Shown piece after piece: positions 38,354 through 49,642 of a stretch of 57,143 bases of DNA. A model generated the notes under the pieces. The model was not told the DNA's origin and made no database searches. It saw only the letters and a list, made by a program, of their open reading frames with translations. Position numbers and translations under genes: made by a program. Source of the stretch: Clostridia bacterium (GTDB taxonomy: Bacteria > Bacillota > Clostridia > UBA1381); contig JAFSXU010000022.1 of assembly GCA_017443895.1 (NCBI GenBank), positions 1-57,143 on the forward strand, written 5' to 3'. Every line of letters begins with the position of its first letter. Within the stretch, counting starts at the first letter, position 1.

Positions 38354-38390
38354 ATATGTTATAGTGTAACGATTTTTGGAGAGTTTTAAT

Positions 38391-38912
38391 ATGAATGCAG
38401 CTTATATATATCTACAATTATATAAATTATTCGATAATACCACCCCCACAAAGGTAGACTGCGGAAAATTGTGTGACAGTGCCTGCTGTAAGGGTGATTC
38501 TGAGTCGGGTATGTTTTTATTCCCGGGCGAGTATGAGGTATACAAGCTTTTAGAGCCCGGGTGGGCAAAAATTGAAAAAACGGATATGACATATAAGCTT
38601 GATGACAGGACTTATACAGTACCTATCCTGCTTTGTAACGGCAGCTGTGACAGATACCAACGACCGCTCTCGTGCAGGATTTTTCCGCTGACACCATATC
38701 TTAACAAGGATAACAAATTGGAAATAATAACCGATCCTCGTGCAAAGGGAATTTGCCCTCTTGCAAAAGCATTTTTCAAAGAGGATTATGACGAACAGTT
38801 TTTGAAAAACCTAAACCGAACATTTAATTTATTACTGAAAAATGATAAATTCAAGGCGTTTATGTCGGTATACAGTGAATATCTTGATACATTCAGAAAG
38901 TTCACAGACTGA
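38391..38912 (+). CDS. YkgJ-like cysteine-cluster protein
   Basis: A 173-residue cytoplasmic protein from the ATG at 38391, which has GGAGAG 7 nt upstream; an in-frame TTG 15 nt earlier is unlikely because it overlaps that site. Eight cysteines lie in a pattern of putative metal or Fe-S ligands: CGKLCDSACCKGD near the start, LLCNGSCDRYQRPLSCRIFP in the middle and GICPLAK later. This resembles the YkgJ family of presumed zinc or Fe-S proteins of unknown function. It is followed by the VanW gene after 20 nt. Confidence 0.72.
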   Translation: MNAAYIYLQLYKLFDNTTPTKVDCGKLCDSACCKGDSESGMFLFPGEYEVYKLLEPGWAKIEKTDMTYKLDDRTYTVPILLCNGSCDRYQRPLSCRIFPLTPYLNKDNKLEIITDPRAKGICPLAKAFFKEDYDEQFLKNLNRTFNLLLKNDKFKAFMSVYSEYLDTFRKFTD

Positions 38913-38932: not shown

Positions 38933-40795
38933 ATGAATGATAATAACGAAAAGAATATAAATGAAACAGAAGATAATATCGAAATTGAGAATGTTGATAC
39001 AAATACCGAAGAAATTAAATCCGATATTGAATTAAATCAAGCGGAAGCAGTATCAGATACAGAAAATACGGAAACTGATGATACAGAAGAACCTGTAGCC
39101 GAGCCTGAAAGTTCAGACGATGCAGATGCGGACGATTTTGAAAATGACGATGCGGACGATGCAGATGCAGACGATTTTGAAATTGACGATGCGCCCGATA
39201 CAACAACAGATGCCGAAACTGAAAATTCAGACAGCAAATTAAATGAGTTTATGAAAAATGCAAAAACAAACGCCAAAGAGTTTTTTATAAATGCAAAAAA
39301 ACCGATTATTGTTTCTGTGCTGATAATTGTGGGAATATTGTCTTTATCTACAATAATAGGTATTGCAACTCTGCCCCATGACCGTGTAATGCACAATGTA
39401 TATGTAGAAGATACCAATCTTTCGGGTATGACATACGAGGAAGCATTAAAGGTTGTAAACGGCACTCTGCTTCTTGAAAATCAGACCATAACCCTAAGGT
39501 GCGGTACAAACACATACACTATTGACGGTGCGGATATAGGCATAACCGCAAAGCCCGAGGATACTGCAAAAAAAGCATTCAATTACGGCAAGTCCGGCAA
39601 TAAGATTGCAGACGGTTTCAGGAATGCAAAAAATTTCTTGTTTAAAAAAGTTCTCATTCCCGTTGCAGAAATTGACAACGCTCTGCTTGATGAGAAAATA
39701 AATGAGTTCGGAAATCAGATATACGGAGAAATGATAGGTCATTATGTTGAGATAAACCAACAGGACCAGACAGCAACCGTATGGCCCGGGCATTCGGGAT
39801 ATGATGCAAGTGTTGAGAGCTCATACCTGCCGTCAAGAGAAATAATACTTGACTCAATAAAGCACGATGAGTATAAAAATATTTCCGTACCTTTAAAGAT
39901 TTCCTCACCGCCCGAGCTTACTTTGGAAAAGTTTGACAGCTTGGTATATACAGATCCCATTGACTCATATTACAAAATTGAAAACAACAATGTTGAGGTT
40001 ATACCTGAGCAGACAGGCAGGTATATAAACAAAGACGAGGCCGCAGAGTTTTTGCCTCTTGTAAGAGAAGGCGGAGATGTTGTAAAAATACCTTACTATG
40101 TTTCATATGCGGAGATTACGGCAGATGTATTGACCGAAAAATTGTTTAATACAACTCTTGGCTCGTATTCAACCAATTACGGCGGTTCAACCTCAAACAG
40201 AAAAGCAAATGTTGCAAGAGCCTCACAGCTTATAAATGAAAAGGTTGTAGCGCCCGGCGAGGTGTTCTCCTTTAATGATACTGTAGGCGACAGAACAACA
40301 TCAAACGGTTTCTATACCGCAACCGAGTATATAAACGGAAAATCTGTTCAGGGCATCGGCGGCGGAACATGTCAGGTAAGTACAACTCTATATTCGGCGG
40401 CACTGTATGCCGATATGCAAATTGTACACCGTGAAAACCATGTTATGACCGTTGGATATGTACCGTTAGGGCAGGATGCAACCGTTGCATACGGAAGCGT
40501 TGACTTTAAGTTCAGAAATTCAAGCGACTATCCGATAAAAATTGTAAGCTCCGCAGACGGCGGTACAATATATGTATCAATTATCGGCACTGCATGGGAG
40601 CCTGAAAGAACAGTTGAAATAAAGCACTCAACTTCATATATCGGCGCAGACACTCTTGTACACTCTACAAGATATGTTTACTCAAACGGTGAGCTTATTT
40701 CTACAGATGCTCTAAGCTCAAGCTACTATAAACCGCATACAACCGAGCCACCTGCAGAGCCTGCTGTTTCTACAGAAACCGATACCGAGGAATAA
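38933..40795 (+). CDS. VanW-family membrane-anchored surface protein with acidic N-terminal tail
   Basis: A 620-residue protein. Residues 1-100 are very acidic and repetitive (DADADDFEND and DADADDFEIDD), a single membrane helix spans about 124-146, and the rest is outside the cell. Residues about 150-400 hold two putative peptidoglycan-binding-like domains and 410-540 the VanW domain with NVARASQLINEKVVAPGEVF and GIGGGTCQVSTTLYSAAL. The C-terminus is Thr/Pro/Glu-rich. VanW proteins are linked to cell-wall biology but their biochemistry is not settled. GGGAGG lies 8 nt before the ATG. The acidic tail is encoded by a short tandem DNA duplication around 39118-39195. Confidence 0.88.
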   Translation: MNDNNEKNINETEDNIEIENVDTNTEEIKSDIELNQAEAVSDTENTETDDTEEPVAEPESSDDADADDFENDDADDADADDFEIDDAPDTTTDAETENSDSKLNEFMKNAKTNAKEFFINAKKPIIVSVLIIVGILSLSTIIGIATLPHDRVMHNVYVEDTNLSGMTYEEALKVVNGTLLLENQTITLRCGTNTYTIDGADIGITAKPEDTAKKAFNYGKSGNKIADGFRNAKNFLFKKVLIPVAEIDNALLDEKINEFGNQIYGEMIGHYVEINQQDQTATVWPGHSGYDASVESSYLPSREIILDSIKHDEYKNISVPLKISSPPELTLEKFDSLVYTDPIDSYYKIENNNVEVIPEQTGRYINKDEAAEFLPLVREGGDVVKIPYYVSYAEITADVLTEKLFNTTLGSYSTNYGGSTSNRKANVARASQLINEKVVAPGEVFSFNDTVGDRTTSNGFYTATEYINGKSVQGIGGGTCQVSTTLYSAALYADMQIVHRENHVMTVGYVPLGQDATVAYGSVDFKFRNSSDYPIKIVSSADGGTIYVSIIGTAWEPERTVEIKHSTSYIGADTLVHSTRYVYSNGELISTDALSSSYYKPHTTEPPAEPAVSTETDTEE

Positions 40796-40813: not shown

Positions 40814-42022
40814 GTGGAACTCAATTCATTAAAAGACGGCGATACACCGGTCTTATACGGCTGTGTATCAAAATTAAAAAAAGTTCATAAATTCGCATAT
40901 GTTTATTTAGCGATTGATGATAAGATAGTCGAAACTCTGTATAAAGCAGAGTTTTGTTCTGTGCCGTTTGATAATTTATGCGAGGGTGCTTTTATAAAAA
41001 TAAACGCAACAGTAAAAAATCAACCGCGCTCACAGTACGGAAAAGATATTCTGATAACGGATTTTTCCGTACTTACAAAGCCGTATACCGACACACCCTT
41101 CCCTGTATATGACAAGGATTTGAGAGTTTCACTCGAGGATTGTATGGAGAATAAAATCTCCGCCATACGGCATATGGAAATAAAAAAAATATACAAAGCC
41201 GTATCTGCAATCCAAAGAGCATTTTCCGATTTCTTTGAGGATAGAGGCTATACCTTTATAAATACACCTGTTATAGTACCGATGGAAAACGATGCGTTTA
41301 GTCTTAGTTACTTTAACGATACCGCATCACTTATAACCTCGGCACAACCGTATCTGACTCCGTGTACTGCGGCATTTGGCAAGGTTTATTCAATATCGCA
41401 TATATTTATGAACAAGCGCTACAATTCAACACGGCACTTAAATGAGTATATAACCTTAAACGCACAATCGGGATATGTAAATTCAATTAACGATATTATT
41501 GACCTTATAACTGATTGTATAGCATATATAATAACTAACTTAGATAAAAAGAAAATACTAAAGGACATTCCTTTAAACTATAAAAAACCGCAAATCATCG
41601 AATTTTATGATGCGCTTAAAATTCTTGGCAAGGAAAATCAGACGGATTTAGATCCTACAGATATTAAAAAGCTATGCGCGCATTTTGAGGATAAATCTGA
41701 TTTTGTTATAGTTACACATTTCCCTGCATCAACACGGGAGTTTTACATTGAAGAAAATAGAGACTCTACCCTAAACTGCTTTGACTTATATTTTAGAGGT
41801 TTAAAGATAGGCACAGGGTCAAAAAATATTACCGATTATAATTTGGCAAAGAATAAAAACAACAATTCAGACAATATATATACAGAAGCACTAAAATACG
41901 GTATTATGCCATTTGGCGGATTTACAATAGGGCTTGAGAGATTTTGTACAAAGCTTTTAGACCTTTCAAATATCCGTGAAGCGTCCGTATTCCCCCGTGA
42001 TGTACACCACACAATGCCCTGA
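40814..42022 (+). CDS. Asparaginyl/aspartyl-tRNA synthetase-like paralogue with altered motif 2
   Basis: 402 residues, starting at GTG 40814 with AGGAGA 5 nt upstream. The N-terminal OB-fold (VLYGCVSKLKKVHKFAYVYL) and class IIb catalytic core are recognisable, ending in motif 3 GGFTIGLERFCTKLLDLSNI and the usual FPRD close. Motif 2 reads VYSISHIFMNKRYNSTRHLNEY; in active AsnRS/AspRS this is FRAE..(N/T)SRHL.EF, so the invariant Arg is Met and the Glu is Lys. It is also shorter than AsnRS (about 430-465). I infer a paralogue that may not charge tRNA. It lies 18 nt after vanW. Confidence 0.8.
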   Translation: MELNSLKDGDTPVLYGCVSKLKKVHKFAYVYLAIDDKIVETLYKAEFCSVPFDNLCEGAFIKINATVKNQPRSQYGKDILITDFSVLTKPYTDTPFPVYDKDLRVSLEDCMENKISAIRHMEIKKIYKAVSAIQRAFSDFFEDRGYTFINTPVIVPMENDAFSLSYFNDTASLITSAQPYLTPCTAAFGKVYSISHIFMNKRYNSTRHLNEYITLNAQSGYVNSINDIIDLITDCIAYIITNLDKKKILKDIPLNYKKPQIIEFYDALKILGKENQTDLDPTDIKKLCAHFEDKSDFVIVTHFPASTREFYIEENRDSTLNCFDLYFRGLKIGTGSKNITDYNLAKNKNNNSDNIYTEALKYGIMPFGGFTIGLERFCTKLLDLSNIREASVFPRDVHHTMP

Positions 42023-42033
42023 TTAGCATTGTG
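42010..42033 (+). terminator. Possible terminator at the end of the AsnRS-like gene
   Basis: CACAATGC and GCATTGTG form a perfect 8-bp stem that includes the stop codon. The tail CATAATTTCTC has few T residues, so termination may be weak. Confidence 0.45.
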
Positions 42034-42200: not shown

Positions 42201-42240
42201 AAAATCTATTTTAGCCAAAATTTCAGGAGGTAATTTGCAA

Positions 42241-44322
42241 ATGTCAAATGTTGCAGAGTATTTCGGCTCTAAGGTGTTTAACCTGCCTACTATGAAGGCG
42301 AGATTGCCGAAGGAAACTTACAAATCTTTATTAAAAACAATCAACGAGGGTACAGCTCTTGACCCGTCTGTAGCAGAGGTTGTCGCCAATGCCATGAAGG
42401 ACTGGGCAATTGAGAACGGATGTACACACTATACTCACTGGTTCCAGCCAATGACAGGTACAACAGCAGAAAAGCACGATTCTTTCATTGAGCCTATTGA
42501 TGACGGTACGGTTATTATGGAATTTTCAGGCAAAAACCTTGTAGTCGGTGAGCCTGATGCGTCAAGCTTCCCGTCGGGTGGTTTGCGTGCAACTTTTGAA
42601 GCTCGCGGATATACCGCATGGGACCCTACCTCCTATGCATTTATAAAAGATGATTCATTATGTATTCCAACATCATTTATTTCATACACAGGCGAGGTGC
42701 TTGATAAAAAGACTCCGCTTTTAAGGTCAATGAATGCAATTGACAGAGAAACAAAGAAGATACTTAAATTATTCGGAAAAGAGCCTACTAAGGTTATCGC
42801 CTATGTAGGTCCTGAGCAGGAATATTTCCTTGTTGACAAGGAGCTTTATTCCATGCGTAAAGACCTTATGCTTACAGGAAGAACTCTCTTTGGCGCAATG
42901 CCTGCAAAAGGTCAGGAGCTTGAGGATCACTATTTCGGTCAGATAAAAGAGCGTGTTTCGGCATTTATGAAGGATGTTGACGAGGAGCTTTGGAAGTTGG
43001 GCGTATACTCAAAAACAAAGCATAACGAGGTTGCGCCCGCACAGCACGAGGTTGCGCCTATTTTCTCAACCTGCAACATTTCCGCAGACCAAAACCAGCT
43101 TACAATGGAGCTTTTAAAGAAAATTGCAAACCGTCATAACCTTGTTTGTCTTCTGCACGAAAAGCCATACGAGGGTATTAACGGTTCGGGTAAGCACAAT
43201 AACTGGTCAATAGGAACATCGGACGGTGAAAACTTATTAAAGCCGGGAAAAAATCCTAAGGATAATGTTCAGTTTTTATTATTCCTTGCAGCTATTGTAA
43301 AGGCTGTTGATGATTATTCGGATTTATTAAGAGTATCCGTTGCAACTGCCGGTAATGATCACAGATTGGGTGCAAACGAGGCGCCTCCTGCAATCGTTTC
43401 TATCTATCTTGGCGACCAGCTCACAAAAATAGTAAATGATCTTATTTCAGGCAAGAAAACAAAGGAAGAACGACTTGGTATCTTAGACACCGGTGTTGAT
43501 TCACTCCCTACCCTTCAAAGAGATGCTACAGACCGTAACAGAACATCGCCGTTTGCCTTTACAGGTAACAGATTTGAGTTCAGAATGCCCGGTTCTTCAC
43601 AGTCAGTTTCGGGTATAAACATAATTATAAACACAATTGTTGCAGAGGCTCTTTCTCAGTTCTATGACGAGCTTGAAAAAGAGGAGGATATTCGTCACGC
43701 TGCTATGGATGTTGCCGTAAGAGCATTCAAAAAGCACAACAGAGTAATATTTAACGGCAACGGTTATTCAGACGAATGGGTTAAAGAGGCTGAAAAGAGA
43801 GGTTTGTTGAACTTAAAAACAACTCCCGAAGCTCTGCCATGCTTTGCTTCAAAGAAATCGGTTAGTTTGTTTGAAAAACACGGTGTCTTTACAAAGGTTG
43901 AAACAGTAACAAGAACAGAAATTTTACTTGAGGATTATTATAAGGCACTCAATATTGAAGTCCTTACAATGCTTCAGATGGCTAAGCAGGAAATTTTACC
44001 TGCGTGTCTTGAATATGCAAACTTTATAGTTTCTGATATTGCCTCAAAAGAAGCGATAGGTATTAAGGTCCCAAAAGAAAAAGCGCTTGCAACTAAGATT
44101 TCAAAGCTCACAGAAACACTTATTGCAAACATCAACACTCTGGAAGGTATTTCAGACAAAGCGCCTACGACAGATAATGCCCTAAGACTGGCTACATACT
44201 ATAAAGACAAGGCAATCCCTGCAATGGATAAGCTAAGACAAACAGCTGATACGCTTGAAACCTTGGTTGCGGAAGAATATTGGCCGTTCCCAACATATAC
44301 AGACTTATTATACAGAGTATAA
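42241..44322 (+). CDS. glnN: Glutamine synthetase type III
   Basis: A 693-residue GSIII-type enzyme making glutamine from glutamate, ammonia and ATP. THYTHWFQPMTG and EKHDSFIEP open the catalytic region. FPSGGLRATFEARGYTAWDP is the GSIII signature, KHNEVAPAQHEVAPIF the metal/glutamate site, and NGSGKHNNWSIGT, RLGANEAPPAIVSIY and NRTSPFAFTGNRFEFRMPGS follow. Length is typical (about 690-730). An in-frame TTG lies 6 nt upstream, but the ATG at 42241 with AGGAGG 10 nt before it gives a standard start. It is a single-gene unit with an attenuator-like leader and a shared terminator downstream. Confidence 0.95.
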   Translation: MSNVAEYFGSKVFNLPTMKARLPKETYKSLLKTINEGTALDPSVAEVVANAMKDWAIENGCTHYTHWFQPMTGTTAEKHDSFIEPIDDGTVIMEFSGKNLVVGEPDASSFPSGGLRATFEARGYTAWDPTSYAFIKDDSLCIPTSFISYTGEVLDKKTPLLRSMNAIDRETKKILKLFGKEPTKVIAYVGPEQEYFLVDKELYSMRKDLMLTGRTLFGAMPAKGQELEDHYFGQIKERVSAFMKDVDEELWKLGVYSKTKHNEVAPAQHEVAPIFSTCNISADQNQLTMELLKKIANRHNLVCLLHEKPYEGINGSGKHNNWSIGTSDGENLLKPGKNPKDNVQFLLFLAAIVKAVDDYSDLLRVSVATAGNDHRLGANEAPPAIVSIYLGDQLTKIVNDLISGKKTKEERLGILDTGVDSLPTLQRDATDRNRTSPFAFTGNRFEFRMPGSSQSVSGINIIINTIVAEALSQFYDELEKEEDIRHAAMDVAVRAFKKHNRVIFNGNGYSDEWVKEAEKRGLLNLKTTPEALPCFASKKSVSLFEKHGVFTKVETVTRTEILLEDYYKALNIEVLTMLQMAKQEILPACLEYANFIVSDIASKEAIGIKVPKEKALATKISKLTETLIANINTLEGISDKAPTTDNALRLATYYKDKAIPAMDKLRQTADTLETLVAEEYWPFPTYTDLLYRV

Positions 44323-45448: not shown

Positions 45449-48400
45449 TTATCTGACTACAGGACACAAAATCTTTTGTGTATTCTTATCCCATACATAA
45501 CCCCGTACAGAATTACCTGCATTTGTAAGTGCATTTGTAGTAACTGATGTATTGCCATTTGCTGCAGTGGCATTTGATACCTTTGCTTCAACCAATTTAC
45601 CGTTTTCATCATAGCTTGCAATAACCGCAATTACATCTACTGTTTCGCCTGTTGTATTTGTAATATCGGCACTCAATACATTATCCTTGATAGTTGCATT
45701 AACGCTAAGCTCTGCCTCTTCTTCTTTGGCATCTGATATTACCATTAAATCGTCAAAGTATACCTTTGCAGATGTGTTATCCGCCTCTGTGCCCCAGAAT
45801 ACAGGGAACGCCGCACCGTTATCCGATGCGACCTCTACATCGTCAACATATATTTTACGCTCGGTAATATTACCTGATTTTTTAAGTGTAATGTCAATCT
45901 TATTCCAACTATCTGCTGTAACAGGCAATGCGCTCGTTGCTTGTGTTGATGTGCTGTCATTATAATATAGCTTTGCATCTCCACCGCTGCCGTTTACAGG
46001 CTTTGCGTATATTGTTGCGGTATAAGTTACACCGTCCTCCAATGTATCAGGTGTGTTTATCTTAAATCTCGGTCCTCTGTTTGCACTTGTATAGTTTGAT
46101 GAATTCATAACAAGTGCATTGCCACCTCTTCCGCCGCTCTCTATTGAGAAATTGGTTTCTGCTTTAGAGCCTGTGCTTCTTGCACCGATATACAGTGTAA
46201 CTCCTGCAAGGTCTGTATACGGAGCGGTTTCAGTTGTATTTAAGAATATCAACCTCTGTGATGCAATATTAAAGCTATCACTTACAAGAGGCATTGTATC
46301 CATAGGGATTTGCTTTTTATAGCTTACATTGCTCATTTGAGGCGATGCAACAATTGTTCCCGTCCCGTCAAGAGTAGTTGAAAATCTGAGCTTGCCAAAC
46401 TTCAAATCTCCGATATCAAACTCTCTTGTATACTGACCTGCCACCGTCTCCCATGTAGAATCGGTACCTGTTACGGTTGCCAATGCCGTCTTATTGTCAT
46501 AATCAAACTCAACCTCTACAATCCAGCGCTTTGCACTACCCTGAATATTGCCTAAGCCGTCAACCACTGTTACCCAGTCATTTGCAAAGTTCTGTACACC
46601 GTCAGAGGTAAGCTTTGATGTTAAAGCTCCTGCAGATGCTGCATAAGGCTGTGTAAGAGTCAGGATATTACTATCGTTTTCGTCAAGAAGTTCTACGCTC
46701 ATTGAATATTCATGACCTGTCCAGTTCCAGTTACTGCCATCAATCTTTTGACCGCCTGTTACATAGTGGAACTTCAATACCGCATGGTTATCATCAATCC
46801 TGTCAAATGTCTTATACGCATATGCGCCCTCAGTCGCTTCTGACTGTGTAATTGTTGCACTTGTTGCGGTTACATTTGAATATGTTGTTCCTGTCTTTAC
46901 ACTATCGGTTACAAACTTATTGCTGCCTGTTACATCTATAATCTCCATAGGTGTTACCATAACCTTACAGCTTGCACTGTATCCGCCGTCAAGCGCTGTT
47001 GCGGTTATGGTTGCAACACCTGCATCAAGTCCCTCAATGTTACCTTCCTCATCAACATATGCAATAGTCGGTGCCGATGATGTCCATTTAACCGTTTTTA
47101 CCGTTGCATTAGCAGGAGTTACGGTTGCGGTAAGCTTTTTAGTCGTTCCCGAACCCATGCGAAGGGTTGTGTCCGATAATGAAATTCCATCAACAGGGAT
47201 TGACCATACATTAACATTACAGGTAGCGGTGAAATTACCGTCCTTAGTTGTTACGGTAACGGTTGCATCTCCGTTATTTTTAGCTGTTAATATACCGTTT
47301 GATACGGTTACAACATTCTCATTTGATGATGTCCATGTAACGCCTCGTGTTGTAGCATTCAAAGGCTCAAGAATTGCAGATATTGATGCTGTCTGTGTTT
47401 TCTCAAGCACAATATTGGTTTCTGACAGGCTTACACCTGTTACGGGAACCTCCTTAAACTCCGTTGTTACATTAGTAAACGGTGTTGCAGGTGCAAGGTA
47501 GCTTAGAGTCTTTCCTGCATCGTCCGTTGCCAAAGCTGCACTGCCGATATAGTAGCTTGTATGCGGTGGTTGGTTATAACCGACATTCTGGATTGCAACA
47601 TTAGTTCTGTACTGGCTGTCATGCATAAGTGTTGTTAATCTGTATTCGGTAGGAATAGATGTTGTGAACACTCTTAAATACGCCTGATCGGTATTTGAGC
47701 CTTTATTTATAGGCATTACTATTTCCTCTCGCCAATCGCCCCAAATATCGGCAACCAATGTAGGTGTACGCTTTGTAAAGTTATTTGATGTACCCGGAAT
47801 AAATCCGTCTCCGTCACTGTAGAAACGGCCTGTAGAGCCCGTATCTGCATAGTATTTTGCAATCTGGTTATCGTCTAAGAGCTCGCGTCCCAAATCTCCG
47901 TCCCAGTAAACAAGGAAGTTATCCATACCACGGGAAGATGTCTGTGGTTTGGTTGCAATGTTATCTCCATTAAAGTCATGAGCATATGCAAAACCCGATG
48001 ACCAGCCGATTGATAACGCATTCGGATGAGTTTTTGCATACGCATCATCAACATTTGCCATTACGCCTCGTCCGTTATCGCCCGAAGCCGCCAACTTACC
48101 CGATGACCAGAAATGCCGACCTGTTGCCGTTTCTCTCAAATCCTCTGCATAATACTTATATCCTTCACCATCCTCCTTTACAGAGAATGTTTCCTGCATA
48201 CCGTCATTATTAAAGTCACTGGTATGGATTGCATCGCCATGTCCTAAGAGGGTGTTTCCCAAAACCGTCTTTCCGTCATCGTCCAATGTAGCAGAACCGT
48301 ATACAATCTCGTCCTTGCCGTCATTGTCTACATCTGCAATGGATAGGTTATGGTTACCCTGCCCGTACATTGATGACGCTGTTTTCTTATCGCCACTGTT

Positions 48401-49642
48401 ATACTCCCACTGCATTGTAAAGCTTTCGCCGTCCCATGAGTAGGCACGAATCACTATTCTGTTATAATAACCACGACATTCTATAAGGCTTGGTGTAACA
48501 CCGTCAAGGTATCCTACGCCTGCCAAAAATCTTGATGAACGGTTATACTTACTGTCGCCCCAGTAGCCTGATGATACAAGTGGAATAGCGTCAGTTGTTG
48601 CAAGAGCGGCACCTGTTTCACCGTCAAAAATGGTGTAGTACTCAGGGCCCATATTCTTACCCTTTGTTCTTCCCGACATACCAATATTTAATGCCGTATT
48701 ATCTGCATTTCTTATTGCCTCGGTATCGCCAACCTCTGTTACATAATGACCTGTACCGTCAATTGTTCCCGGTGCGGTCTGACAAGCAATTTCGGATTTT
48801 CCGTTACCGTCAAAGTCATATACCATAAACTGTGAGTAGTGGGCGCCGGCTGTGATATTCTGACCTAAGTCAATTCTCCACATTTTGCCCTTGTTATTGG
48901 GATTTAGCTCATATCCGTCAAGATACACTCTACCCGTAAAATCAGCACCTGCAGAGTCCTTTGAATCCGTAGGATCCCATTTTAAGACAAGCTCATAATC
49001 GCCGTCACCGTCAAGGTCGCCGATTGAACCGTCATTTGCTCCGCCCTCGTGTGATGAATCATACGAATAATATTTTGATGTCTTCCCGTCTCCGTCTCTT
49101 TGAATATCTGCGGGACGCTCTATAGGAATATCAACATATGAATATGAGTTTGGCAAGCTCGTTCCGTTTAATACATATGAGCCTCTTGCAGTCTTATTGG
49201 TTTCTGTAAAAGGCTTAACGCCTACTGTTGCCTTTAACGCCTTTGACTTTTCCGTTGCTTTTTTGTATGTTGGTATAACCTTATACCAGTTTGATGCAGT
49301 ACCTGCGGTATCTGTATAGTTTGTAGCACCGGACAGACCCGTCGCAATCGCTGTATATGAACCTGTCTGTGATGTACTTCTGTAAACATCAAAAGTCTGT
49401 GTCGCCAAATCTTCCGTACCTAAAAGACGCCAGCTTAAATATACACCGTTTGTTATACCGTTATATGCATCATTTGCATTATTATTTATAATAGCAACAA
49501 GACCGCGGTTTAATTTTTCCATTAACCGCACATTCTCTCTGTACTGTGGCACATTTGCCGCTGATGCGCTTATGGAAAATCCCGAAAATGCACCTGCCGT
49601 AATCGCTATGCTTGCTATAGTGCTTATGATTTTTCTTCTCAT
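45449..49642 (-). CDS. Secreted rhamnogalacturonan lyase (PL11-type) with two Big2 domains
   Basis: 1397 residues with a signal peptide (1-28, ending SASA). After an N-terminal Fn3-like region (about 40-140), residues about 150-725 form the PL11 beta-propeller, with calcium-loop motifs DLDGDGDYELVLKWDPTD, YDFDGNGKSEIAC, DVDNDGKDEIVYG and DFNNDGMQETF, and ADIWGDWREEIVMP near the end. Two bacterial Ig-like (Big2) domains follow (about 730-812 and 813-893). Two lectin- or CBM-like modules (about 900-1110 and 1115-1310) and a short C-terminal beta-domain come last. No LPXTG, SLH or dockerin is visible. It cleaves the rhamnogalacturonan I backbone of pectin. It has its own promoter. Confidence 0.9.
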   Translation of the reverse strand: MRRKIISTIASIAITAGAFSGFSISASAANVPQYRENVRLMEKLNRGLVAIINNNANDAYNGITNGVYLSWRLLGTEDLATQTFDVYRSTSQTGSYTAIATGLSGATNYTDTAGTASNWYKVIPTYKKATEKSKALKATVGVKPFTETNKTARGSYVLNGTSLPNSYSYVDIPIERPADIQRDGDGKTSKYYSYDSSHEGGANDGSIGDLDGDGDYELVLKWDPTDSKDSAGADFTGRVYLDGYELNPNNKGKMWRIDLGQNITAGAHYSQFMVYDFDGNGKSEIACQTAPGTIDGTGHYVTEVGDTEAIRNADNTALNIGMSGRTKGKNMGPEYYTIFDGETGAALATTDAIPLVSSGYWGDSKYNRSSRFLAGVGYLDGVTPSLIECRGYYNRIVIRAYSWDGESFTMQWEYNSGDKKTASSMYGQGNHNLSIADVDNDGKDEIVYGSATLDDDGKTVLGNTLLGHGDAIHTSDFNNDGMQETFSVKEDGEGYKYYAEDLRETATGRHFWSSGKLAASGDNGRGVMANVDDAYAKTHPNALSIGWSSGFAYAHDFNGDNIATKPQTSSRGMDNFLVYWDGDLGRELLDDNQIAKYYADTGSTGRFYSDGDGFIPGTSNNFTKRTPTLVADIWGDWREEIVMPINKGSNTDQAYLRVFTTSIPTEYRLTTLMHDSQYRTNVAIQNVGYNQPPHTSYYIGSAALATDDAGKTLSYLAPATPFTNVTTEFKEVPVTGVSLSETNIVLEKTQTASISAILEPLNATTRGVTWTSSNENVVTVSNGILTAKNNGDATVTVTTKDGNFTATCNVNVWSIPVDGISLSDTTLRMGSGTTKKLTATVTPANATVKTVKWTSSAPTIAYVDEEGNIEGLDAGVATITATALDGGYSASCKVMVTPMEIIDVTGSNKFVTDSVKTGTTYSNVTATSATITQSEATEGAYAYKTFDRIDDNHAVLKFHYVTGGQKIDGSNWNWTGHEYSMSVELLDENDSNILTLTQPYAASAGALTSKLTSDGVQNFANDWVTVVDGLGNIQGSAKRWIVEVEFDYDNKTALATVTGTDSTWETVAGQYTREFDIGDLKFGKLRFSTTLDGTGTIVASPQMSNVSYKKQIPMDTMPLVSDSFNIASQRLIFLNTTETAPYTDLAGVTLYIGARSTGSKAETNFSIESGGRGGNALVMNSSNYTSANRGPRFKINTPDTLEDGVTYTATIYAKPVNGSGGDAKLYYNDSTSTQATSALPVTADSWNKIDITLKKSGNITERKIYVDDVEVASDNGAAFPVFWGTEADNTSAKVYFDDLMVISDAKEEEAELSVNATIKDNVLSADITNTTGETVDVIAVIASYDENGKLVEAKVSNATAANGNTSVTTNALTNAGNSVRGYVWDKNTQKILCPVVR

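Follow-up and report, generated by a model that had tools for sequence, protein, structure and literature searches.

We analysed a window of 57,143 nucleotides, the whole stretch of DNA, in which a gene of the synthetase kind lies at the end of a presumed operon. The genes and features that matter here are as follows, all on the forward strand.

38376..38912, +: cysteine-cluster protein, 178 aa; first gene of the presumed operon, VanW-linked in relatives
38933..40795, +: VanW-domain envelope protein with a peptidoglycan-binding-like domain (Pfam VanW E=5.3e-49, PG_binding_4 E=2e-12)
40814..42022, +: dismantled archaeal-type (non-discriminating) AspRS, here called orphan AspRS2, 402 aa (ORF, Pfam, NCBIfam, PDB, alignment)
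41351..41359, +: former amino-acid site QSPQxxK (residues 175-182, TSAQPYLT); motif Lys (residue 181) replaced by Leu (alignment)
41408..41416, +: motif 2, M199-N200-K201 instead of Arg-Ala-Glu (alignment)
41459..41467, +: second strand of motif 2, N216-A217-Q218 instead of Asp-x-Glu (alignment)
41804..41827, +: Mg/ATP Glu replaced by K331, and Gly-Gln-Arg by S336-K337-N338 (alignment)
41939..41941, +: motif 3 Arg (R376), kept in all ten altered copies (alignment)
42010..42033, +: terminator-like hairpin with a T-rich tail at the end of the orphan AspRS2 gene; weak
42235..44322, +: glutamine synthetase type III (glnN), which neighbours AspRS2 in the genus and in many relatives with an active AspRS2

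The open reading frame of orphan AspRS2 occupies exactly 40814-42022 (+), with 402 codons and a GTG start; a good ribosome site (AGGAGataagcGTG) precedes it, and 18 nt separate it from the VanW stop. Its position behind the cysteine-cluster and VanW genes is as the original prediction had described it. The cysteine-cluster protein had no match in Pfam or NCBIfam profile searches; the protein (CGKLCDSACCKG...) is kept beside VanW across the family. Terminator-like sites are no commoner in the real sequence than in shuffles. Placement of glnN in the same operon is doubtful, because a promoter-like site follows the terminator-like site, and the AspRS2 copies of genus g9, which no glnN adjoins, also speak against it; glnN is probably its own transcription unit.

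Judged by its sequence, the window protein is beyond chance a class II synthetase of the Asp/Asn/Lys group (Pfam tRNA-synt_2, E=7.7e-41). A PDB sequence search matched it to 3nel, 1b8a and 1n9w, the best match being an archaeal AspRS (E=5.9e-39). The NCBIfam model for aspartate--tRNA(Asn) ligase, NF003483, was matched with E=2.3e-71 and 241 bits, below its curated cut-off of 353, and the AsnRS model TIGR00457 with E=1.8e-36 and about 121-126 bits, against an asnS cut-off of 342.6. The predicted fold matched 1b8a, 3nel and 3kfu (E 1e-20 to 1e-22), with the AspRS chains of the Thermus transamidosome 3kfu among the best fold matches, in an AlphaFold model that was built from five sequences, has a mean pLDDT of 61 and values below 50 in active-site parts, and confirms the fold only. 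The protein shows the overall homology and domain order of archaeal-type, non-discriminating AspRS (AspRS2), and to judge from these matches it is closest to that enzyme rather than to AsnRS, which the original prediction had taken it to resemble. A region of about 90 residues at the N terminus is modelled with fair confidence as a beta-barrel. Pfam found no anticodon OB-fold in the window protein, unlike in its intact relatives, and the OB-fold Gln of the anticodon-binding region (ILQSVY in intact relatives) is Glu here (IVETLY) and Glu or Lys in the other genus copies that cover it. No relative of the window protein was found on viral contigs.

We defined 84 constant positions as those that do not vary among 30 intact relatives, the Thermococcus-type AspRS and the Thermus AspRS, and the window protein keeps 43 of the 80 that it covers. 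Motif 2 reads IF-M-N-K-RYNSTRHLNE, compared with V(Y/F)-R-A-E-KHNSTRHLNE in the relatives, and motif 3 reads GGFTIGLERF, so that the reported loss of the motif 2 Arg (FMNK versus FRAE) beside a well-kept motif 3 is confirmed. Both Asp-binding residues are replaced (Lys of QSPQxxK by Leu181, Arg of GGQR by Asn338), as is the Glu of the metal-binding acidic pair (Lys331; Asp324 is kept), and the His of PPHGG is now Phe367; the flexible loop is partly deleted. The protein retains the RH..E motif, Asp324 and motif 3 Arg376. In AspRS, it is at these positions that Asp, ATP and Mg are bound, and we take their E. coli counterparts, by motif, to be K198, R217, E219, E482, R489 and R537. All five genus members have lost the QSPQxxK Lys, the Arg and Glu of motif 2, the Asp/Glu of LDxE, the Mg Glu, the GGQR Arg and the PPHGG His, and all five keep the motif 3 Arg and the RH-E motif. 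It had been proposed to look for conservation of the Met/Lys pair in motif 2. The Glu-to-Lys change is indeed conserved in the genus, but the Met is not, and neither is Met-Asn as a unit (M-N, L-A and S-A occur). Loss of adenylation in the window protein is well supported by these substitutions; the earlier doubt about normal adenylation was justified and, with nearly the whole active site altered, understated.

Gene order identifies the origin of the gene. No genome of the family has more than one AspRS2 gene. In the relatives the order is cysteine-cluster gene, VanW, gatC, gatA, gatB and aspS2, with glnN downstream in many; intact aspS2 is directly adjoined by gatB, and gatA/gatC and VanW lie beyond where the contig reaches that far (for example, G013, G031 and G037). 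In the window's genus, the cysteine-cluster-VanW pair and glnN flank aspS2 as they do in the relatives, and gatCAB is absent from between them. Because the flanking genes are the same and gatCAB is missing, the window gene is, on this comparison, the AspRS2 of the family, from beside which the three upstream partner genes have been lost. It is thus a single syntenic orthologue of active AspRS2, one copy per genome, and not the paralogue that had been proposed. The remark that it does not sit with translation genes holds for the present locus but not for the ancestral one, as gatC, gatA and gatB stand between VanW and the gene in relatives.

The route of tRNA-dependent Asn formation by AspRS2 and GatCAB is established for Thermus and Deinococcus (PMC4206432). 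The Deinococcus/Thermus AspRS2 (PRK05159; PDB 1n9w and the 3kfu transamidosome) is a direct homologue with the same order of OB-fold and class II core, and the intact relatives of the window protein are encoded beside gatCAB. Compared with this enzyme, the window protein has the Lys, the motif 2 Arg/Glu, the Mg Glu and the GGQR Arg replaced, its locus lacks gatCAB and the OB-fold Gln has become Glu or Lys.

We therefore asked how the host supplies Asn-tRNA. Its genome (99.5% complete) lacks a canonical AsnRS, the best match to the AsnRS model being the window gene itself at 121 bits; GlnRS and AsnB are present. The original prediction had depended on another asnS or aspS gene in this genome, and two bacterial-type AspRS were found besides orphan AspRS2. 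The main AspRS carries RDMGN. The second, which has a GAD domain, belongs to an aspS-gatC-gatA-gatB operon on contig C46 (L100 4044-9203) and carries RDHGG, with the His that is typical of non-discriminating enzymes (H31 in Pseudomonas aeruginosa). GatA and GatB of this operon are only 51% and 43% identical, respectively, to the family's own (ancestral) proteins, and this low identity points to a foreign origin of the operon. Given the lack of AsnRS and the presence of an RDHGG AspRS in a gatCAB operon, Asn-tRNA is predicted to be made by the C46 operon, through a bacterial AspRS of the non-discriminating type. An aspS-gatCAB operon of this sort is also found in three further genus members; in G004 (86% complete) neither gatB nor a second AspRS was seen. 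Genomes G010 (L106, L107 and L109) and G039 (L104, L105 and L108) have three bacterial AspRS genes each, some of them in aspS-gatCAB operons of different kinds.

Dismantled AspRS2 is present in all five genomes of the window's genus, and altered copies also occur in G033, G038, G039 and G034 of genus g9, directly behind VanW and without gatCAB at the locus. Outside the genus, every altered copy lies at a locus that has lost gatCAB. In the AspRS2 gene tree the altered copies cluster, but on very long branches, and we used a marker tree instead, built from the main AspRS and assuming vertical inheritance of this marker. A single clade of hosts with altered copies was rejected on the marker tree (p-AU 4.6e-44), and the fewest changes on the 41-genome tree are three, consistent with dismantling having arisen about three times in related gut bacteria, in at least two lineages beyond the genus. 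The AspRS2 of G046 (L121 7081-8400) lies behind VanW at a locus from which gatCAB has gone; it has FCAE instead of FRAE and keeps the QSPQxxK Lys, the motif 2 Glu, the metal Glu and the GGQR Arg. G046 is the sister of the far more altered G034 (support 100/96) and looks like an early stage of disarming, and, as its Arg has become Cys with little else lost, it suggests that the motif 2 Arg was the first residue to go. In G049, the whole aspS2-gatCAB block is absent and VanW directly precedes glnN; the gene is thus dispensable in that genome. In G039 a family-type gatCAB persists at another place, so dismantling does not require that the whole genome be without GatCAB. The 19 AspRS2 from other families of the class all have their sites intact, some of them without gat genes in 1.5-kb flanks, showing that separation alone is insufficient for decay. 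A rule by which unlinking from gat means dismantling fails outside the family, where many copies with no gat gene in their short flanks are intact.

We compared selection on altered and intact copies. For altered AspRS2, dN/dS (NG86) was about 0.19 (G000/G002) and 0.15 (G003/G004), values that are rough because dS is near saturation, and for intact AspRS2 and GSIII it was 0.02-0.08. In neutral simulations, 0 of 300 runs kept the frame open at 0.2 substitutions per site. Some lost columns have acquired a new consensus: one new residue is unanimous among the five genus proteins in 12 of 40 lost columns, compared with 3 of 65 variable columns (Fisher p=0.0009; the compared sites differ in intrinsic rate). 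Together, dN/dS below 1, open frames and reconserved residues favour a protein with a job over a relic. A functionless relic that is carried along by co-transcription behind VanW and slowly decays would be in keeping with the fast evolution of AspRS2 relative to its neighbours (61% identity when GSIII has 96%), with its shortening to 376 aa in G034 and with its absence from G049. We consider this unlikely, as nine altered copies in three lineages have kept their frames open over hundreds of codons when, at 0.2 substitutions per site, neutral drift would give about nine stops; dN/dS also lies far under 1, and the good ribosome site has been kept.

If the protein has a job, this could be catalytic. 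The rebuilt pocket, which has Lys at two once-acidic positions, might support new ATP-dependent or other chemistry, for example, that of an amino acid ligase: K201, Q218, K331, S336 and N338 are identical in all five genus members at about 40% identity overall, and the motif 3 Arg is retained. Class II adenylation depends on the ligands of the ATP alpha-phosphate and the metal, and these disappeared with the combined loss of Arg and Glu from motif 2 and of the Mg-binding Glu; moreover, parallel lineages have rebuilt the site otherwise (GGEH versus GSKN), which leaves new chemistry distinctly improbable. Continued function as an AspRS or AsnRS with divergent residues and relaxed tRNA charging would fit the kept fold and a genome without canonical AsnRS, but seven catalytic positions are gone, the anticodon OB-fold escapes recognition by Pfam, unlike that of intact relatives, and a complete alternative route to Asn-tRNA is encoded elsewhere in the genome; we regard this as highly improbable.

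The reading that we favour, with a probability of roughly 0.7, is that the window gene encodes an orphan pseudoenzyme that has lost aminoacyl-adenylation and is retained for a binding or regulatory role. In the ancestor, a gatC-gatA-gatB-aspS2 unit for tRNA-dependent Asn formation would have been inserted after the cysteine-cluster and VanW genes; AspRS2 would have put Asp on tRNA-Asn, and GatCAB would have amidated the resulting Asp-tRNA-Asn. Then gatCAB was presumably lost from the locus, and the foreign-looking aspS-gatCAB operon elsewhere may have taken over Asn-tRNA formation. This would have made AspRS2 redundant and, in the absence of its partner, potentially harmful, as it would release uncorrected Asp-tRNA-Asn; loss of adenylation may thus have been favoured, with toxicity as the driver. 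The adenylation site would then have been destroyed, probably beginning with the motif 2 Arg, and the folded body kept under selection for a role that needs no adenylation.

By analogy, that role is most likely non-catalytic, in binding or regulation, as in HisZ, a HisRS-like regulator of HisG that lacks adenylation activity (PMC9437257). Both would be class II synthetase bodies that serve as binding or regulatory subunits without adenylation, and it is possible that the window protein works like HisZ. HisZ differs in its HisRS lineage, its known partner HisG and its origin by an old duplication, whereas the window protein appears to have arisen by loss in place; its best matches are AspRS rather than HisRS, and its neighbours are the cysteine-cluster gene, VanW and glnN and not hisG. 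HisZ is a better analogue than AsnA (asparagine synthetase A) and EpmA/PoxA, the repurposed relatives of the Asp/Asn/Lys synthetase group that the original prediction had offered as models. Both AsnA and EpmA/PoxA are active enzymes that still adenylate and lack an anticodon domain. The window protein, by contrast, has lost the adenylation residues and keeps its N-terminal domain, the predicted barrel of about 90 residues, albeit one without a Pfam OB-fold match. The co-transcribed VanW and cysteine-cluster genes are the first candidates for partners; as part of their linkage goes back to the ancestral locus, it is weak evidence.

Dead synthetases that have taken on new roles are already a known kind, and the usual explanation for such pseudoenzymes is that a working gene was duplicated. 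In this case the route appears to run in place: a partner is deleted, a foreign pathway arrives and the stranded synthetase is disarmed yet retained, with G046 as an intermediate and about three parallels. We propose, tentatively, that loss of GatCAB beside a non-discriminating AspRS has repeatedly led to a selected dead protein with a rebuilt pocket and a new role, perhaps one linked to VanW. In the openly accessible literature that we searched, we found no description of recurrent in-place disarming of archaeal-type AspRS after GatCAB loss. The case allows a clear test of whether a mischarging enzyme has to be disarmed once it lacks its partner, and a new synthetase-derived function can be sought in a small and defined group of proteins.

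Further along the window (45449-49642), we noted a gene for a large secreted protein of 1397 aa with Ig-like repeats. Its N-terminal region resembles rhamnogalacturonan lyases by eye, which suggests that the host is a plant-fibre-degrading gut bacterium.
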